Source: Arthrobacter crystallopoietes (GTDB lineage Bacteria > Actinomycetota > Actinomycetes > Actinomycetales > Micrococcaceae). Taken from it: 64,000 bases of DNA. Under the pieces are notes generated by a model, which was not told where the DNA came from, searched no databases, and saw only the letters and a list, made by a program, of their open reading frames with translations. A program made the translations under genes and the position numbers. This document shows positions 57,455-63,455 of the stretch, piece after piece. Position 1 is the stretch's first letter, and each line of letters opens with the position of its first letter. The stretch lies in contig NZ_CP018863.1 in assembly GCF_002849715.1 (NCBI RefSeq), positions 2,480,001-2,544,000 of the forward strand, written 5' to 3'.

Positions 57455-58939
57455 ATGACTGCATTACAGGACCAGAGGTCAGCGTCGACCGCACTGCCCC
57501 TGAGCACCCGTCTCTACAACGAGGATCTGGCACCCACCAAAAAGGCAGGCCGCACGTGGTCGGCCTATAACATTTTCACCTTGTGGGCCAATGACGTCCA
57601 CAGCCTCGGCAACTACGCCTTCGCCATCGGGCTCTTCGCCCTGGGGCTGGGAGCGTGGCAGATCCTGCTGGCGTTCCTCGTCGGCGCAGTCCTGCTCTTC
57701 CTGCTCCTGAGCCTCTCGGGCTTCATGGGGGAGAAGACCGGTGTTCCCTTCCCGGTCATGAGCCGCATTGCCTTCGGCATCCACGGCGCGCAGCTGGCCG
57801 CCGTCGCCCGTGGCGGCGTGGCCATCGCCTGGTTCGGCGTCCAGACCTATCTGGCCTCCGTGGTCCTGCGGGTGATGCTGACGGCCATGTTCCCCGGACT
57901 GGCACCGCTGGACACCAACAACTTCCTCGGCATGTCCACCCTCGGCTGGATCTCCTTCGTGGCGCTCTGGATCCTGCAGGTCATCATTGTCAGCTTCGGC
58001 ATGGAAATGATCCGCAAGTACGAGGCCTTCGCCGGCCCGGTCATCCTCGTCACCATGCTAGCCATCGCGGTCTGGATGTTCATCGAGGCCGGCGGCTCCA
58101 TCGCCCTCTCCACCAACGAGAGCCTGACCGGCGGCGAGATGTGGCGGCAGATCTTCGTGGGCGGCGCCCTCTGGATCGCCATCTACGGCACGTTCGTCCT
58201 GAACTTCTGCGACTTCACCCGCTCGGCCACCAGCAAGAAGGCCATCACCCGCGGCAACTTCGTCGGCATCCCGCTGAACATGCTCTTCTTCGGCGCCATC
58301 GTCGTCGTACTTGCCGGTGCGCAGTTCAAGATCAACGGGCAGATCATCGAGAGCCCTTCCGACATCGTGCAGACCATCCCCAACACCTTCTTCCTGGTGC
58401 TGGCCTGCCTCGCGCTGCTGGTGCTCACCGTGGCCGTGAACCTGATGGCCAACTTCGTGGCACCGATCTACATGTTCACCAACCTCTTCCCGCGCCGACT
58501 GAACTTCCGCTCGGCCGCCATCGTCAGCGCCGTCATCGGCCTGGTGATCCTGCCCTGGAACCTCTACAACAACCCGGTAGTGATCGTGTACTTCCTGGGC
58601 GGCCTCGGCGCCATCCTCGGCCCGATCTTCGGCGTCATCATGGCCGACTACTGGATCATCCGCAAGGCGCAGATCAACGTCCCGGACCTGTACACCGAGG
58701 CAGCCAACGGCGAGTACCACTACAAGCGCGGCGTCAATCCGCGGGCCATCATTGCCCTGGTGCCGGCCGCCGTCATCGCGATTGTGCTGGCTCTGGCGCC
58801 TGCCTTCAGCGCCGTCGCCGGGTTCTCCTGGTTCTTCGGCGCAGGCCTGGCCGCGGTGTTCTACCTGATCGTGGCCGACCGCACGGCTCGCTTCCGCGAC
58901 GTCGACGGCGAAGCACTCGCCGTCGCCAGCGCCCACTAG
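57455..58939 (+). CDS. NCS1-family permease (allantoin/hydantoin/uracil type)
   Basis: Nucleobase-cation-symport-1 transporter, 494 residues and twelve helices. Family features are LYNEDLAPTKKAGRTWSAYN, FTLWANDVHSLGNYAFAIG, GEKTGVPFPVMSRIAFGIHG and the C-terminal IFGVIMADYWIIRKAQINV. It imports allantoin or a related cyclic ureide with Na+ or H+. First gene of the operon with the racemase and allantoinase; a modest AGGT serves as binding site. Confidence 0.93.
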   Translation: MTALQDQRSASTALPLSTRLYNEDLAPTKKAGRTWSAYNIFTLWANDVHSLGNYAFAIGLFALGLGAWQILLAFLVGAVLLFLLLSLSGFMGEKTGVPFPVMSRIAFGIHGAQLAAVARGGVAIAWFGVQTYLASVVLRVMLTAMFPGLAPLDTNNFLGMSTLGWISFVALWILQVIIVSFGMEMIRKYEAFAGPVILVTMLAIAVWMFIEAGGSIALSTNESLTGGEMWRQIFVGGALWIAIYGTFVLNFCDFTRSATSKKAITRGNFVGIPLNMLFFGAIVVVLAGAQFKINGQIIESPSDIVQTIPNTFFLVLACLALLVLTVAVNLMANFVAPIYMFTNLFPRRLNFRSAAIVSAVIGLVILPWNLYNNPVVIVYFLGGLGAILGPIFGVIMADYWIIRKAQINVPDLYTEAANGEYHYKRGVNPRAIIALVPAAVIAIVLALAPAFSAVAGFSWFFGAGLAAVFYLIVADRTARFRDVDGEALAVASAH

Positions 58940-58983: not shown

Positions 58984-59730
58984 GTGCGCATCCTCGTCGT
59001 GAATGTGAACACCACCGAGTCCATGACCGAAGCCATCGGCCGGCAGGCAGCCGCCGTGGCCTCGCCGGGCACCGAGATCGTTCCGCTGACCCCGCTCTTC
59101 GGCGCGGACTCGGTGGAGGGCAACTATGAAAGCTATCTGGCCGCCATCGCGGTGATGGAAACGGTCCGCAACTACCCCGAACCGTTCGACGCCGTCATCC
59201 AGGCCGGCTACGGCGAGCACGGCCGCGAAGGCCTCCAGGAAATCCTGGACGTCCCGGTCGTGGACATCACCGAAGCCGCAGCCAGCACCGCGCAGTTCCT
59301 CGGCCACAAGTACTCCGTGGTCACCACCCTGGACCGCGCCGTCCCGCTGATCGAGGACAGGCTCAAGCTGGCTGGACTCGACGCCCGCTGCGCCTCCGTC
59401 CGCGCCAGCGGCATGTCCGTCCTGGGCCTGGAGGAGGATCCGGATGCGGCTGTCAACGCCATTGTCGCGGAAGCCGCCATCGCCGTCGCCCAGGACAAGG
59501 CGGAAGTGATCTGCCTCGGTTGCGGCGGGATGGCCGGCCTCACCGAGCGCGTGATCGAGCGGACCGGAGTGCCCGTTGTCGACGGCGTTGCTGCCGCCGT
59601 CACGATCGCGGAATCCCTGGTTCGGATGGGACTAACGACGTCGAAAATCCGCACCTATGCGCCGCCGCGGCCTAAAACCTTCAAGAACTGGCCGCTGAGC
59701 TCCGTCCCGGTGCTCGCCGGCCAAGCCTAA
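58984..59730 (+). CDS. Asp/Glu/hydantoin racemase family protein
   Basis: A 248-residue member of the hydantoin/allantoin racemase family, interconverting enantiomers so that a stereospecific allantoinase can use both. N-terminal VRILVVNVNTTESMTEAIG is typical. The second catalytic cysteine is present (ICLGCGGMAGL, Cys180). The first, normally in a CFGDPG-like motif, is replaced: QAGYGEHGREGL has Gly75 there. So it may be a one-base racemase variant, an isomerase or inactive. GTG start behind AGGAG, 44 bases after the permease. Confidence 0.88.
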   Translation: MRILVVNVNTTESMTEAIGRQAAAVASPGTEIVPLTPLFGADSVEGNYESYLAAIAVMETVRNYPEPFDAVIQAGYGEHGREGLQEILDVPVVDITEAAASTAQFLGHKYSVVTTLDRAVPLIEDRLKLAGLDARCASVRASGMSVLGLEEDPDAAVNAIVAEAAIAVAQDKAEVICLGCGGMAGLTERVIERTGVPVVDGVAAAVTIAESLVRMGLTTSKIRTYAPPRPKTFKNWPLSSVPVLAGQA

Positions 59731-59778: not shown

Positions 59779-61161
59779 ATGACAGAAACCATCAGCCGCG
59801 CCGCCTCCGCACCCGCCGGCCCCGCCACCGCCTATGACCTGGTTATCCGCGGTAACCGGATCATGACCACCGCCGGCGAAGTTGCCCGCGAAGTCGGTAT
59901 CCGGGACGGAAAGATCGTCGCCATCGAGCCCCTGGGCAACAACCTCGAAGGCGCGGAGGTCATCGAGCTCTCCGCCGAGGAAGTCCTGCTCCCGGGCCTC
60001 GTGGACACGCACGTCCACGTCAACGAGCCCGGCCGCACCGAATGGGAAGGCTTCGCCTCCGCCACTCGTGCAGCTGCCGCCGGCGGCGTCACCACGATCA
60101 TCGACATGCCGCTGAACTCCATTCCGCCGACCGTCAACGTGGACGCGCTCGAGCAGAAGCGGGCCGCGGCACGCGAGCAGGCGTTCGTCGACGTCGGCTT
60201 CTGGGGCGGGGCCATCCCCGGCAACCAGGGCGACCTGCGCGGCCTGCACGACGAGGGCGTCTTCGGTTTCAAGTGCTTCCTGCTCCACTCCGGCGTGGAC
60301 GAATTCCCGCACCTGGAAGCGGATGAGATGGAATCAGACATGGCCGTCCTGAAGACCTTCGACTCCATCATGATCGTGCACGCGGAGGACTCGCGCGCCA
60401 TCGACCGCGCGCCCACCGCCGAGGGCGACCACTACGACAAGTTCCTGGCCTCCCGCCCCCGCGGTGCCGAGAACGTCGCCATCGCCGAGGTCATCGAACG
60501 CGCCCGCTGGACCGGCGCCCGCGCCCACGTGCTGCACCTGTCCTCCTCGGACGCGCTGCCGATGATTGCTTCTGCAAAGCGCGACGGCGTCCGCATCACC
60601 GCCGAAACCTGCCCGCACTACCTCACGCTCATCTCCGAGGAAATCCCGAACGGCGCCACCGCGTACAAGTGCTGCCCGCCCATCCGCGAGGCCGGCAACC
60701 GCGAACTGCTGTGGGAGGGCCTGCTGGACGGAACGATCGACTGCATCGTCTCGGACCACTCGCCCAGCACGCTGGACCTGAAGGACCTCGAGAACGGTGA
60801 CTTCGCAGTCGCCTGGGGCGGTGTATCCTCGCTCCAGCTCGGCCTGTCGCTGATCTGGACCGAAGCCCGCCGCCGCGGCATCACCCTGGACAAGGTCATC
60901 GACTGGATGTCCACCAAGCCGGCCGCGCTGGCAGGCCTGAACTCCAAGGGCAAGCTCGCGCTTGGCTACGACGCCGACCTGTCCATCTTCGCACCGGACG
61001 AGTCCTACGTAGTGGATCCCGCCAAGCTCCACCACAAGAACCCCATCACCGCCTATGCGCAGAAGCCGCTCTCCGGCGTGGTCCGCAAGACCTACCTGCG
61101 CGGACAGCAGATCGACAGCCAGACCCCGGCCGGACAGTTGCTCCGCCGCGGCATGGCCTGA
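59779..61161 (+). CDS. allB: allantoinase
   Basis: Cyclic amidohydrolase opening the allantoin ring to allantoate, 460 residues. Metal ligands start with DTHVHVNEPGRTEWEG; GGVTTIIDMPLNS is the allantoinase-specific stretch. The carbamylated Lys is in FGFKCFLLHSG, and later ligands in IVHAED, HVLHLSS and CIVSDHSP. It follows the racemase by 48 bases. Allantoate-processing enzymes are not in the window except possibly the FAH-family gene. A strong hairpin follows. Confidence 0.94.
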   Translation: MTETISRAASAPAGPATAYDLVIRGNRIMTTAGEVAREVGIRDGKIVAIEPLGNNLEGAEVIELSAEEVLLPGLVDTHVHVNEPGRTEWEGFASATRAAAAGGVTTIIDMPLNSIPPTVNVDALEQKRAAAREQAFVDVGFWGGAIPGNQGDLRGLHDEGVFGFKCFLLHSGVDEFPHLEADEMESDMAVLKTFDSIMIVHAEDSRAIDRAPTAEGDHYDKFLASRPRGAENVAIAEVIERARWTGARAHVLHLSSSDALPMIASAKRDGVRITAETCPHYLTLISEEIPNGATAYKCCPPIREAGNRELLWEGLLDGTIDCIVSDHSPSTLDLKDLENGDFAVAWGGVSSLQLGLSLIWTEARRRGITLDKVIDWMSTKPAALAGLNSKGKLALGYDADLSIFAPDESYVVDPAKLHHKNPITAYAQKPLSGVVRKTYLRGQQIDSQTPAGQLLRRGMA

Positions 61162-61173
61162 CCCAACCACCAG

Positions 61174-61207
61174 GGCGGCTGCTGCACATCGAAGTACAGC
61201 AGCCGCC
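61174..61207 (+). terminator. hairpin between allantoinase and peptide gene
   Basis: Perfect 11-base stem GGCGGCTGCTG / CAGCAGCCGCC, 12-base loop, 12 bases after the allB stop and 27 before the peptide ATG. Without a T-run it may act as a terminator, an attenuator or an mRNA-stabilising end. Confidence 0.7.
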
Positions 61208-61234
61208 TCGACACCACGAAAGGCAGCAAGTCCC

Positions 61235-61348
61235 ATGAGCAGCTCCACGGCGAGTACCCTGATCAACACGTTTGCCGTCGGCGACGAGGGCGTTGCGAGC
61301 TGTGAAGATTCCACTTGCCTCTACTGCAACGGCCCGGAGACGGACTGA
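61235..61348 (+). CDS. 37-residue Cys-rich peptide, copy A
   Basis: Tiny ORF whose product begins MSSSTASTLINTF and ends ASCEDSTCLYCNGPETD. It is credited as a real gene because an independent paralogue 540 bases away shares both ends at protein level while many codons differ by synonymous changes, showing selection on the peptide. Three Cys spaced CxxxxCxxC. The binding site is weak (AAAGG far upstream). No family is recognised. The leader-plus-conserved-tail layout resembles a modified-peptide precursor or a small metal-binding peptide; both are inference. Confidence 0.68.
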   Translation: MSSSTASTLINTFAVGDEGVASCEDSTCLYCNGPETD

Positions 61349-61392
61349 TCCTGCGGCCGCCCCGGCGAAAGGATCATCGGTCCCCGCGGAGA

Positions 61393-61659
61393 TCATCCCC
61401 CGCGAAGATCGGCGAGTATGTCCTCGCTGCTTTCATCTAGCCGGGTTCTGGCAAGCAGGGTGAAGTCCACCGATCCCGTAGACGCGGCAGGACGGACGGC
61501 ACCTCGGAGCAACAGCCGTTCAAAGGCTGAGGACGACGGCGGGATAAGCGTCGCCGCGACCTCGCCCTTGATTGTCACGTCGATGATCTCCCCGCTTTTG
61601 ACGCGCTCAAGGATCTTGCGGCTCTCGTTGCGAAGCTGACGATGGGGAATGGTAGTCAT
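61393..61659 (-). CDS. Phd/YefM-type antitoxin, apparently orphan
   Basis: An 88-residue DNA-binding antitoxin: TTIPHRQLRNESRKILERVKSGEIIDVTIKGEVAATLIP is the Phd/YefM N-terminal domain. The C-terminal segment (FTLLARTRLDESSEDILADLRGG) is the type that wraps a PIN-family (VapC) toxin. GGAGGTG precedes the ATG. The toxin gene expected downstream is missing: only 44 bases separate the stop from the peptide gene. It lies antisense between the two peptide genes. Confidence 0.87.
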   Translation of the reverse strand: MTTIPHRQLRNESRKILERVKSGEIIDVTIKGEVAATLIPPSSSAFERLLLRGAVRPAASTGSVDFTLLARTRLDESSEDILADLRGG

Positions 61660-61682
61660 GCTTGACACCTCCGTAGCAGGGG

Positions 61683-61697
61683 TTGCAACTGTAGCAA
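61683..61697. promoter_or_regulatory. candidate antitoxin autoregulatory site
   Basis: TTGCAAC-T-GTAGCAA, a palindrome with one mismatch in seven, 24 bases upstream of the antitoxin start. Phd-type proteins normally bind such sites in their own promoter. The octamer ACAGTTGC within it recurs at 61809-61816 upstream of peptide copy B. Confidence 0.5.
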
Positions 61698-61891
61698 ATC
61701 CGCCGAAGCATGACTCTGCCGGCACCTTCGGAACAGGCTGCACGGCGACGTGCAGCAACCGCCGTCGGCGTCCCACCGTTCAGGTTTCCTAACCGGTACC
61801 CGTCGAAAACAGTTGCTGTACCTGATGCGAGGTCACCGGCATGCTGGACTATGGAAGCAGCACCCAATTCAAAGTCTAGAAAGGTACCCAC

Positions 61892-62041
61892 ATGAGCAAC
61901 TCAACGGCGAGTACTCTGATCATCACTTCGGCAGCTGGCAACGGTCCGGCACGGTTCTTCAATGCGGACGCCATCGGCCCGTACGACGCAACCTGCGAGG
62001 ACTCGACCTGCCTCTATTGCAACGGTCCAGAGACGGACTAA
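61892..62041 (+). CDS. 49-residue Cys-rich peptide, copy B
   Basis: Paralogue of the peptide at 61235: starts MSNSTASTLIITS, ends ATCEDSTCLYCNGPETD, with a 12-residue insertion between (RFFNADAIGPYD). Start ATG has AAAGG six bases upstream. The last 14 residues are identical to copy A but several codons differ (e.g. GAG/GAA, TCG/TCC, TAT/TAC). It stops five bases before the convergent MFS gene. Secretion signal is absent, so export, if any, would need a dedicated system. Confidence 0.72.
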   Translation: MSNSTASTLIITSAAGNGPARFFNADAIGPYDATCEDSTCLYCNGPETD

Positions 62042-62045
62042 GCGC

Positions 62046-63455
62046 CTACTCATTGACCGGTCCGGCCTCTGCCGGAAGGTTGCGGATGCCCCACGCCGAG
62101 ACGAGGCCTCCGGCGATGGCGAGGATGGCGACGACCGCGAGTACCCGGCGGAAGCCGTCGTCGTCGAGCACGGCCCCGAGAATGACGCCGGCGAATGCCA
62201 CGGCGATCAGCCCGGCGATGCGTGAGACTGCGTTGTTGATGGCGGATCCGATTCCGCTCTCGCCAGGACCGACAGCGGAGAGGATGGCGGAGGTCAGCGG
62301 GGCGACCGTGATGGCAAGGCCCAGCCCGCAGACGAGTAGACCTGGCAGCAGCTGTGTCCAGAAGTCCACCGGGATTCGCACGGCCGTCATCATCAAGTAA
62401 CCGGCACCGATCACCAGCGGACCCACCGCCATAAAGATACGCGGGCCGAACCTCCCCGCCAGACCACCGAAGGTGCCGGATAACAGCAGCATCAAAATTG
62501 CAACGGGGATGGTAGCCAGCCCGGCTTCGGTTGCGGAGAACCCGGCGACCTGCTGAAGGAACAGGACTACCACCAGCATGCCCAACGACAGCGCGGCGTA
62601 GATGAGCGCTGTGGCGATGTTGCCGATCCCGAAGTTGCGCATCCGGAACAACCGCAGCGGCATCATCGGATGAGCGGTGCGGTTTTCCCACCAGAGGAAG
62701 AGTGCGAAGGACACCACCCCCAAGGCCAAGGAAACTGCGACGCCGGGATGGCTCCAGCCAAGCCGTTGCTGCTCGATCAGCGCAAAGACCGTTCCGCCCA
62801 AGCCGACCGCGGCCAGCACAGCGCCAACCACATCCAGCGGCGGCCGGCCTTGCACGGAAGTCTCTAGCTTGAGCCGCCCGAGAATTACCAGGGTGACGGC
62901 AATGGGGAGCACGTTGATGGCAAAGATCCAGCGCCAGTTAAACAGGTCGACCAGAAGCCCGCCGAGCAATGGTCCCGCAATGGCGGAGGTACCTGTCCAG
63001 CCGGCCCATAAACCGATGGCCCTGCCCTGGGCTGCATCCCTGTAGGAGGACATGATCAGCGCCAGCGAGCTCGGCACAAGCAATGCGCCGCCGATACCCT
63101 GGACGGCACGCGCTGCAATCAGCACGCCGCCGGCCGGCGCCAGCGCGCAGGCCAGGGACGCCAAGCCGAACAGGACCAGGCCCAGCCGGAGTATGCGGAC
63201 CCTGCCGAACCCGTCGGACAGGGAGCCGGCAATGAGGATGAGGGCGCCGAGAGTCAGAAGGTAGGCATCGACAACCCACTGCTGCAGCGCCAGTCCACCG
63301 CCCAGATCATCGGTCATCGCGGGCAGCGCGACGTTGATAATCGCACCGTCGAGGAACGCCACGAACGAGGCCAGGATCGCGACCCACAGCACCGGGCGGA
63401 GCGCAGGATCGAGGCGGACCGCTGCCTTGCGCTCCGTGCGAGAACGCTTGTTCAT
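62046..63455 (-). CDS. DHA2-type MFS drug/metabolite exporter
   Basis: Fourteen-helix EmrB/QacA-like proton antiporter, 469 residues. Family landmarks: FVAFLDGAIINVALPAM in helix 1, GSLSDGFGRVRIL (motif A), QGIGGALLVPSSLALI (motif C region) and WAGWTGTSAIAGPLLGGLL. It exports drugs or peptides-like metabolites; no substrate is known. GAGG precedes ATG 63455. It is convergent with peptide copy B, leaving open whether the two are functionally linked. Confidence 0.92.
   Translation of the reverse strand: MNKRSRTERKAAVRLDPALRPVLWVAILASFVAFLDGAIINVALPAMTDDLGGGLALQQWVVDAYLLTLGALILIAGSLSDGFGRVRILRLGLVLFGLASLACALAPAGGVLIAARAVQGIGGALLVPSSLALIMSSYRDAAQGRAIGLWAGWTGTSAIAGPLLGGLLVDLFNWRWIFAINVLPIAVTLVILGRLKLETSVQGRPPLDVVGAVLAAVGLGGTVFALIEQQRLGWSHPGVAVSLALGVVSFALFLWWENRTAHPMMPLRLFRMRNFGIGNIATALIYAALSLGMLVVVLFLQQVAGFSATEAGLATIPVAILMLLLSGTFGGLAGRFGPRIFMAVGPLVIGAGYLMMTAVRIPVDFWTQLLPGLLVCGLGLAITVAPLTSAILSAVGPGESGIGSAINNAVSRIAGLIAVAFAGVILGAVLDDDGFRRVLAVVAILAIAGGLVSAWGIRNLPAEAGPVNE

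Follow-up and report, generated by a model that had tools for sequence, protein, structure and literature searches.

Two short genes in a 64,000-nt stretch of Arthrobacter crystallopoietes DNA (contig NZ_CP018863.1, positions 2,480,001 to 2,544,000; hereafter the window) are one corner of a much larger family of small proteins, joined by a Cys-containing C-terminal tail that is under selection. We read both ORFs as unmodified, cytoplasmic micro-proteins that would act in trans, with the tail binding a metal or an Fe-S cluster, and give this reading a probability of roughly 0.4. The two genes and their surroundings are as follows.

57455..58939, + strand: permease for cytosine/purines, uracil, thiamine, allantoin (Pfam/NCBIfam)
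58984..59730, + strand: Asp/Glu/hydantoin racemase (Pfam/NCBIfam)
59779..61161, + strand: amidohydrolase (allantoinase/dihydropyrimidinase type), the gene before copy 1 (Pfam/NCBIfam)
61218..61223, + strand: GAAAGG ribosome-binding site of copy 1, kept in 4/4 aligned orthologues
61235..61348, + strand: tail peptide gene, copy 1, 37 aa, the last gene after the hydantoin/allantoin-type operon
61301..61348, + strand: conserved tail of copy 1, CEDSTCLYCNGPETD-stop
61879..61884, + strand: GAAAGG ribosome-binding site of copy 2, kept in 7/7 aligned orthologues
61892..62041, + strand: tail peptide gene, copy 2, 49 aa
61994..62041, + strand: conserved tail of copy 2, CEDSTCLYCNGPETD-stop
62046..63455, - strand: MFS transporter, convergent to copy 2, start codon provisional

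The original prediction had placed ORFs of 37 and 49 residues on one strand here; both were found, each with its GAAAGG ribosome-binding site. As it had described, the ends are shared, with one difference in the first ten residues and none in the last 15, and the codons differ mostly synonymously: when the final 17 codons are aligned, the copies differ at 9.0 of 10.7 synonymous sites and at 1.0 of 40.3 non-synonymous ones. Copy 1 follows the permease-racemase-amidohydrolase operon by 73 nt, and its orthologues adjoin the same operon at three loci (L022, L023, L088). Copy 2 has orthologues in six other genomes of the genus. The convergent exporter gene that had been noted encodes the MFS transporter, whose stop lies 5 nt from that of copy 2, and a same-strand downstream gene is absent for both copies. 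Between the copies lies an 88-codon ORF on the minus strand (61393-61659), which looks antitoxin-like and has no Pfam match at 0.001; L022 and L023 carry other gene calls between the two copies. The genome has a third paralogue some 0.8 Mb from these two (L152, C1:3356563-3356703, predicted start), with the tail CGFGSGRCPYCDGPETD. Upstream of it, at a distance of about 2.5 kb, is the end of a penicillin-binding-protein gene.

Homologues were found widely elsewhere by profile and protein searches, as the original prediction required. A whole-peptide profile, used at a loose limit (E 0.1) at which many matches fell short of the C-terminus, matched 78 of 295 Micrococcaceae genomes. A tail-only profile (E 0.002) matched 89 of 395 genomes of the family, in 11 of 32 genera; five of its listed matches end before the last column, and setting aside the four genomes that had just such incomplete matches lowers the count to 85 of 395 genomes, in 9 of 32 genera. 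At the level of the order, 21 of 297 genomes matched (E 0.01), and on reading the tails from that search we found the real tail outside Micrococcaceae in only four genomes, which belong to a single genus of another family. At two loci from the other family (L154, L155) the peptide gene is isolated, flanked on each side by an opposite-strand gene, and has 128-197 nt before it as room for a promoter. A phylum-level search (E 0.001) matched 2 of 396 genomes, both Micrococcaceae.

A protein search, run without any filter on the tail, gave 80 proteins at E values up to 10, and the 31 read from it all end in GPETD. The names listed were 'hypothetical protein' (Arthrobacter, Pseudarthrobacter) apart from one, a member that JGI calls 'pyruvate-formate lyase-activating enzyme'. 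Ten members were compared with Pfam and with NCBIfam, and none rose over a curated cut-off in either library, for which the earlier statement that no known family is recognised therefore holds. Within the open-licence literature, titles and abstract openings held nothing on this tail or on an Arthrobacter small-protein family. Plasmids queried with four sequences gave one real member, on p232 of Arthrobacter sp. Rue61a (E 6, recognised by its tail), with the other rows at chance level; phages gave no match to a blended query. The plasmid member (L161:5926-6054) is unannotated and lies about 160 nt before a proline-racemase-family operon; p232 itself is typed as conjugative. The family, sharing only this ending and often placed by nutrient-use genes, suggests an unrecognised small-protein module of soil bacteria, of unproven function.

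Filtering 130 loci (L022-L024, L049-L106, L152-L160, L190-L249) for C..C..PE[TS]D-stop gave 129 distinct genes. The filter itself sets the Cys residues at -10 and -7, the P, E, T or S and D that follow, and the stop directly after Asp. Outside the filter, Tyr or Phe at -8, before the last Cys, is present in all 129 peptides, and Gly at -5, before the Pro, in 114. Tails end in PETD in 125 peptides and in PESD in four. A further Cys precedes the pair within 10 residues in 125 of the 129, at a spacing of 3 in 79, 4 in 27, 5 in one, 6 in four, 8 in 12 and 9 in two; the remaining four, all from one genomic context, have two Cys only. Spacing 3 (CX3CX[YF]C) occurs in 31 of 47 contexts (defined below), and the window copies have spacing 4 (CX4CX[YF]C). 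Four loci missed the filter, all in the second batch of 60. Two of these are one-residue variants, ending in PEAD and GAETD; the other two, L208 and L210 from the same genome, lack the stop, L210 with a Cys-to-Arg change as well, and are apparently decaying members.

Across 74 genes, all four codons for each of Gly, Pro and Thr occur in the tails, as do all three stops, so the constraint is on the peptide and not on the DNA. In ten partly overlapping sets of orthologues or paralogues, pN/pS summed over pairs was 0.03-0.36 for the tail and 0.14-1.24 for the N-part, where it exceeded 1 in two sets. This Ka/Ks-type check upheld the claim of selection on a peptide and placed the strongest constraint in the C-terminal 16-17 residues. 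In the copy-2 set of the window, from four close genomes, the N-part is constrained as well (pN/pS 0.14).

Predicted lengths, with starts picked by script from start codon and ribosome-binding site, run from 16 to 69 aa (median 42, n=129). We sorted the 129 genes by similarity of their neighbours into 47 contexts, 28 of them single. Among the 101 peptides with an N-part of at least 12 residues, N-part similarity (E 0.001) joined 45 pairs within contexts and 16 between contexts, all 16 of the latter inside the MSxSxxSTL group to which the window copies belong. Between contexts, that group apart, the tail is the sole shared element detected. The conserved head that had been described thus stands inside the genus but fails across the family, where the tail is conserved instead. 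By predicted start, 13 of the 129 genes encode just 16-18 aa, 12 of them in one context (a DUF1775 operon), and in these forms little more than the tail may suffice. At L056, L058, L064, L066 and L081 the peptide overlaps an upstream ORF of 65-79 codons by 1-14 nt; by eye, this ORF is like the N-part of some relatives (P0065). An AlphaFold2 model of copy 2 (28 sequences) had no confident fold (mean pLDDT 55.1, pTM 0.13), with no helix of at least 4 and no strand of at least 3 residues, a result that is neutral towards a metal-bound form.

Genomic surroundings were classed from the calls of our own codon-usage gene caller, counting neighbours only if they had at least 90 aa. A same-strand upstream gene was present for 94 of the 129 genes, within 300 nt for 64. 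The next gene was convergent for 53, in 24 of the 47 contexts, and on the same strand for 72; for four, no next gene was called. Genes with a convergent next gene and a same-strand upstream gene within 300 nt form a terminal class of 35, in 14 contexts. The internal class has 18 genes in 9 contexts. A leader-like class, with a same-strand gene at most 300 nt downstream and no same-strand gene of at least 90 aa within 300 nt upstream, has 32 genes in 10 contexts, 18 of the genes sharing one context. Six genes in five contexts are isolated between opposite-strand genes, and 38 fall in none of these classes.

Annotated examples give the impression of a catabolic and uptake theme among the neighbours, which we offer as description. 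They include (by Pfam/NCBIfam) amidohydrolases and a Glu/Leu-type dehydrogenase (L051, L240); a PutA-type proline/aldehyde dehydrogenase (L090, and by similarity L062 and L065); flavin and copper amine oxidases; an agmatine-deiminase-like protein and an amidase; a glutaminase with an amino-acid permease and a TPP enzyme; an amino-acid (glutamine-type) ABC transporter beside glutamine synthetase adenylyltransferase; urocanase, histidinol-dehydrogenase-like proteins, aldehyde dehydrogenases and an FMN-dependent dehydrogenase; and dicarboxylate, malonate, citrate and betaine-type transporters. Some of these neighbours are several hundred nt away. Other surroundings are non-catabolic: proteins with DUF1775 and DUF4232 are encoded in the largest context, of 23 genes (by Pfam at L052 and L066, the rest by similarity), one has a UbiA/glycosyltransferase operon, and the third paralogue of the window's genome lies in penicillin-binding-protein surroundings.

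Two further elements were noted before the window copies.

61173..61208, + strand: hairpin between the amidohydrolase gene and copy 1, with 14 of 15 stem positions paired and a 6-nt loop
61774..61891, + strand: copy 2 upstream region, 118 nt, aligning in 7/7 genus members

The arms of the hairpin (61173-61187 with 61194-61208) are GC-rich. Among four orthologues 96.7% of cells pair, two pairs having changed on both sides, and the covariation score was reached by 29 of 500 shuffles, which is moderate support for a conserved hairpin. Spacers before many, not all, other copies hold strong hairpins (L082, L087, L101, L218). For copy 2, sequence further upstream than the 118-nt region could not be aligned in the genus members. 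The region contains RACCGGTA...GRAAA at 61791-61809 as well as GCTxTAC...CCxGC...GCTGG blocks, and is probably a promoter/operator. The motif at 61791 stands before 6 of 7 copy-2 genes; elsewhere in the window and in the examined loci of at least 4 kb it was not met. This restriction, with the conservation of the region, suggests that a separate promoter serves copy 2, which would not be part of the operon of copy 1. A 20-base pattern modelled on the upstream motif of an orthologue had no match in the window, and so missed even the window's own element. A consensus scan at the window copies gave no promoter and one weak terminator-like site, not above chance. Twenty loci searched for known RNA families at the gathering threshold gave only one tRNA.

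Several other accounts of the family have to be weighed. The last ten residues might arrest translation on the stop codon, thereby controlling the next gene, in the manner of TnaC or CutF/CruR. Constraint does reach the stop codon while the N-part varies, the 32 leader-like genes are placed as such a peptide would be, and the Rue61a plasmid copy stands before its proline-racemase-family operon. CutF has a C-terminal Pro-rich motif, a CxxxC and a downstream target (PMC9973294); the tail peptides are like CutF/CruR in having a Cys motif near a constrained C-terminus, and some precede an operon with a DUF1775 protein. They differ in that the end of the tail holds no proline pair and no Pro-rich stall motif, and no signal peptide was seen by eye. 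They differ also in the 53 genes whose next gene is convergent, 35 of them no more than 300 nt from a same-strand upstream gene; at such loci, leader action is excluded because a leader needs a downstream target, and the six isolated genes likewise speak against it. This rules it out for both window copies, and for the family as a whole we consider it unlikely. Nor do we favour the reading as a precursor of a ribosomally made modified peptide (RiPP), which the original prediction had raised. On that account the tail would be a core, and an enzyme from another locus would convert it (by thioether, Fe-S-assisted or PEARL-type modification) into a cofactor or metallophore. A constant tail rich in Cys, Thr and Asp would suit a core, and mycofactocin provides a precedent for a C-terminal core behind a leader. 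The likeness of the tail peptides to mycofactocin and other C-terminal-core RiPPs ends with that constant segment: the genome of the window has no RRE or SPASM match. No leader conserved for enzyme recognition was found, N-parts being unrelated between contexts, the window group apart, and nearly absent in 13 of the 129 genes, and no maturation enzyme was noticed among annotated neighbours. Five enzyme families, PF05402 (PqqD/RRE), PF05114 (MNIO), PF13186 (SPASM), PF02624 (YcaO) and PF05147 (LanC), have no match in the window's genome. Searched in 34 genomes chosen from earlier results, these five profiles matched, in the same order, 0, 0, 1, 1 and 0 of 17 tail-bearing genomes and 5, 0, 1, 7 and 0 of 17 tail-less ones; the families are no commoner where the tail is present. 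The lack of these five families and of a leader shared across contexts counts against a precursor, which we hold to be quite improbable.

A different possibility is that the free C-terminus is a tag recognised by a protease adaptor, chaperone or regulator, the Cys residues only shaping a zinc-bound turn. The stop directly after Asp is required by our filter, but the GPETD end of all 31 filter-free proteins is independent of it, and only 4 of the 60 second-batch loci, the two variants and two stop losses above, depart from the pattern. No partner is known for such a tag. This account overlaps our preferred one and is inseparable from it on these data; as a separate explanation we give it a modest chance. 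GPETD also resembles the sortase motif LPETG; by eye the peptides have no signal peptide or membrane anchor, and we set the likeness aside. There is last the suspicion that ORFs so short in GC-rich DNA arose by chance, or belong to a DNA or RNA element that merely looks coding. Against it stand the synonymous variation of the tail codons, the use of three stop codons and the ribosome-binding sites. The strict tail pattern, moreover, occurs twice in the window and in none of 60 second-order Markov windows. Over 1.56 Mb of fetched loci, C..C.. was followed by PETD-stop 127 times and by each of the other 23 residue orders 0 times, a control that is indicative only, the loci having been preselected for the tail. 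As far as sequence allows, chance ORFs are refuted, and we attach almost no credence to them.

Our preferred reading remains that of a trans-acting micro-protein. At the window copies there is no downstream target, and the genome has none of the five RiPP-enzyme families searched; this points to a small protein that would act in trans through its tail. The tail would be the working part, its three thiolates binding a metal ion or Fe-S cluster, and metal or Fe-S binding seems the most natural chemistry for such a sequence; of what the original prediction offered, a small thiol metal ligand is the leading candidate. A single shared partner would recognise the constant, free GPETD end. Since many genes for the use of amino acids, amines and organic acids have this tail made next to them, we propose that it may report, or adjust the cell for, a change to substrates of this kind. 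Production of copy 1 would accompany that of the hydantoin/allantoin-type operon, and copy 2 would be expressed from the conserved region that precedes it.

The closest parallel is the cluster loop of radical-SAM enzymes such as BioB and PqqE, in which CX3CX[YF]C holds a [4Fe-4S] cluster. The same Cys spacing is found in 79 of the 129 peptides and the aromatic residue before the last Cys in all of them. There were weak, motif-level matches to the PqqE cluster loop in the PDB (E 0.3) and to the BioB loop (E 0.35), and the JGI name 'pyruvate-formate lyase-activating enzyme' for one member is a hint at that same level. The likeness goes no further than the motif. No enzyme domain surrounds the loop here, and a free GPETD end follows it; a TIM-barrel SAM domain was absent, the peptides having 16-69 aa and the ten members compared having no Pfam domain over cut-off. 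Short peptides are able to hold [4Fe-4S] clusters (PMC10946529). Several observations run against our reading. The spacing of the Cys varies, as a strict Fe-S site would disfavour, and is 4 in the window; four of the 129 peptides, all from a single context, lack a third Cys within 10 residues; 32 genes in 10 contexts sit where a leader peptide would; and the tail-only forms belong almost wholly to one context and depend on predicted starts. Binding of Zn or Cu, or simple redox chemistry, would suit the tail equally well.

Two other comparisons bear on the family. AcnSP, a cyanobacterial small-protein regulator of central metabolism, is like the tail peptides in its length of about 40 residues and its association with metabolism; it is reported to resemble the N-terminus of aconitase, and we claim no sequence relation to the tail peptides. 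The Euplotes pheromone ER family (PF06360) shares a C..C-x-Y-C-x-G-P stretch. That match was below threshold (E 0.011, 16.5 bits against a cut-off of 25) and in an unrelated organism, and we took it as chance.

Annotation mostly overlooks genes of 16-60 codons. Those described here carry a near-constant C-terminal module that recurs in 47 contexts; the N-parts before it are otherwise unrelated. The module is under selection, and none of the libraries searched has a name for it. Its paralogues and orthologues, apparent tail-only forms included, make a natural set for testing very short functional peptides, and the family is a direct test case for whether Fe-S clusters are held in vivo by CX3CX[YF]C peptides that are not part of an enzyme. 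A bolder version, which we think unlikely, is that a constant metal- or [4Fe-4S]-bearing C-terminal peptide, in its shortest form perhaps of 16 residues, is made next to dozens of unrelated operons for substrate use and serves as a shared 'substrate in use' signal to a single receptor. If that were true, the signal would be the peptide counterpart of a second messenger, arising anew whenever the tail is joined to an arbitrary N-part.
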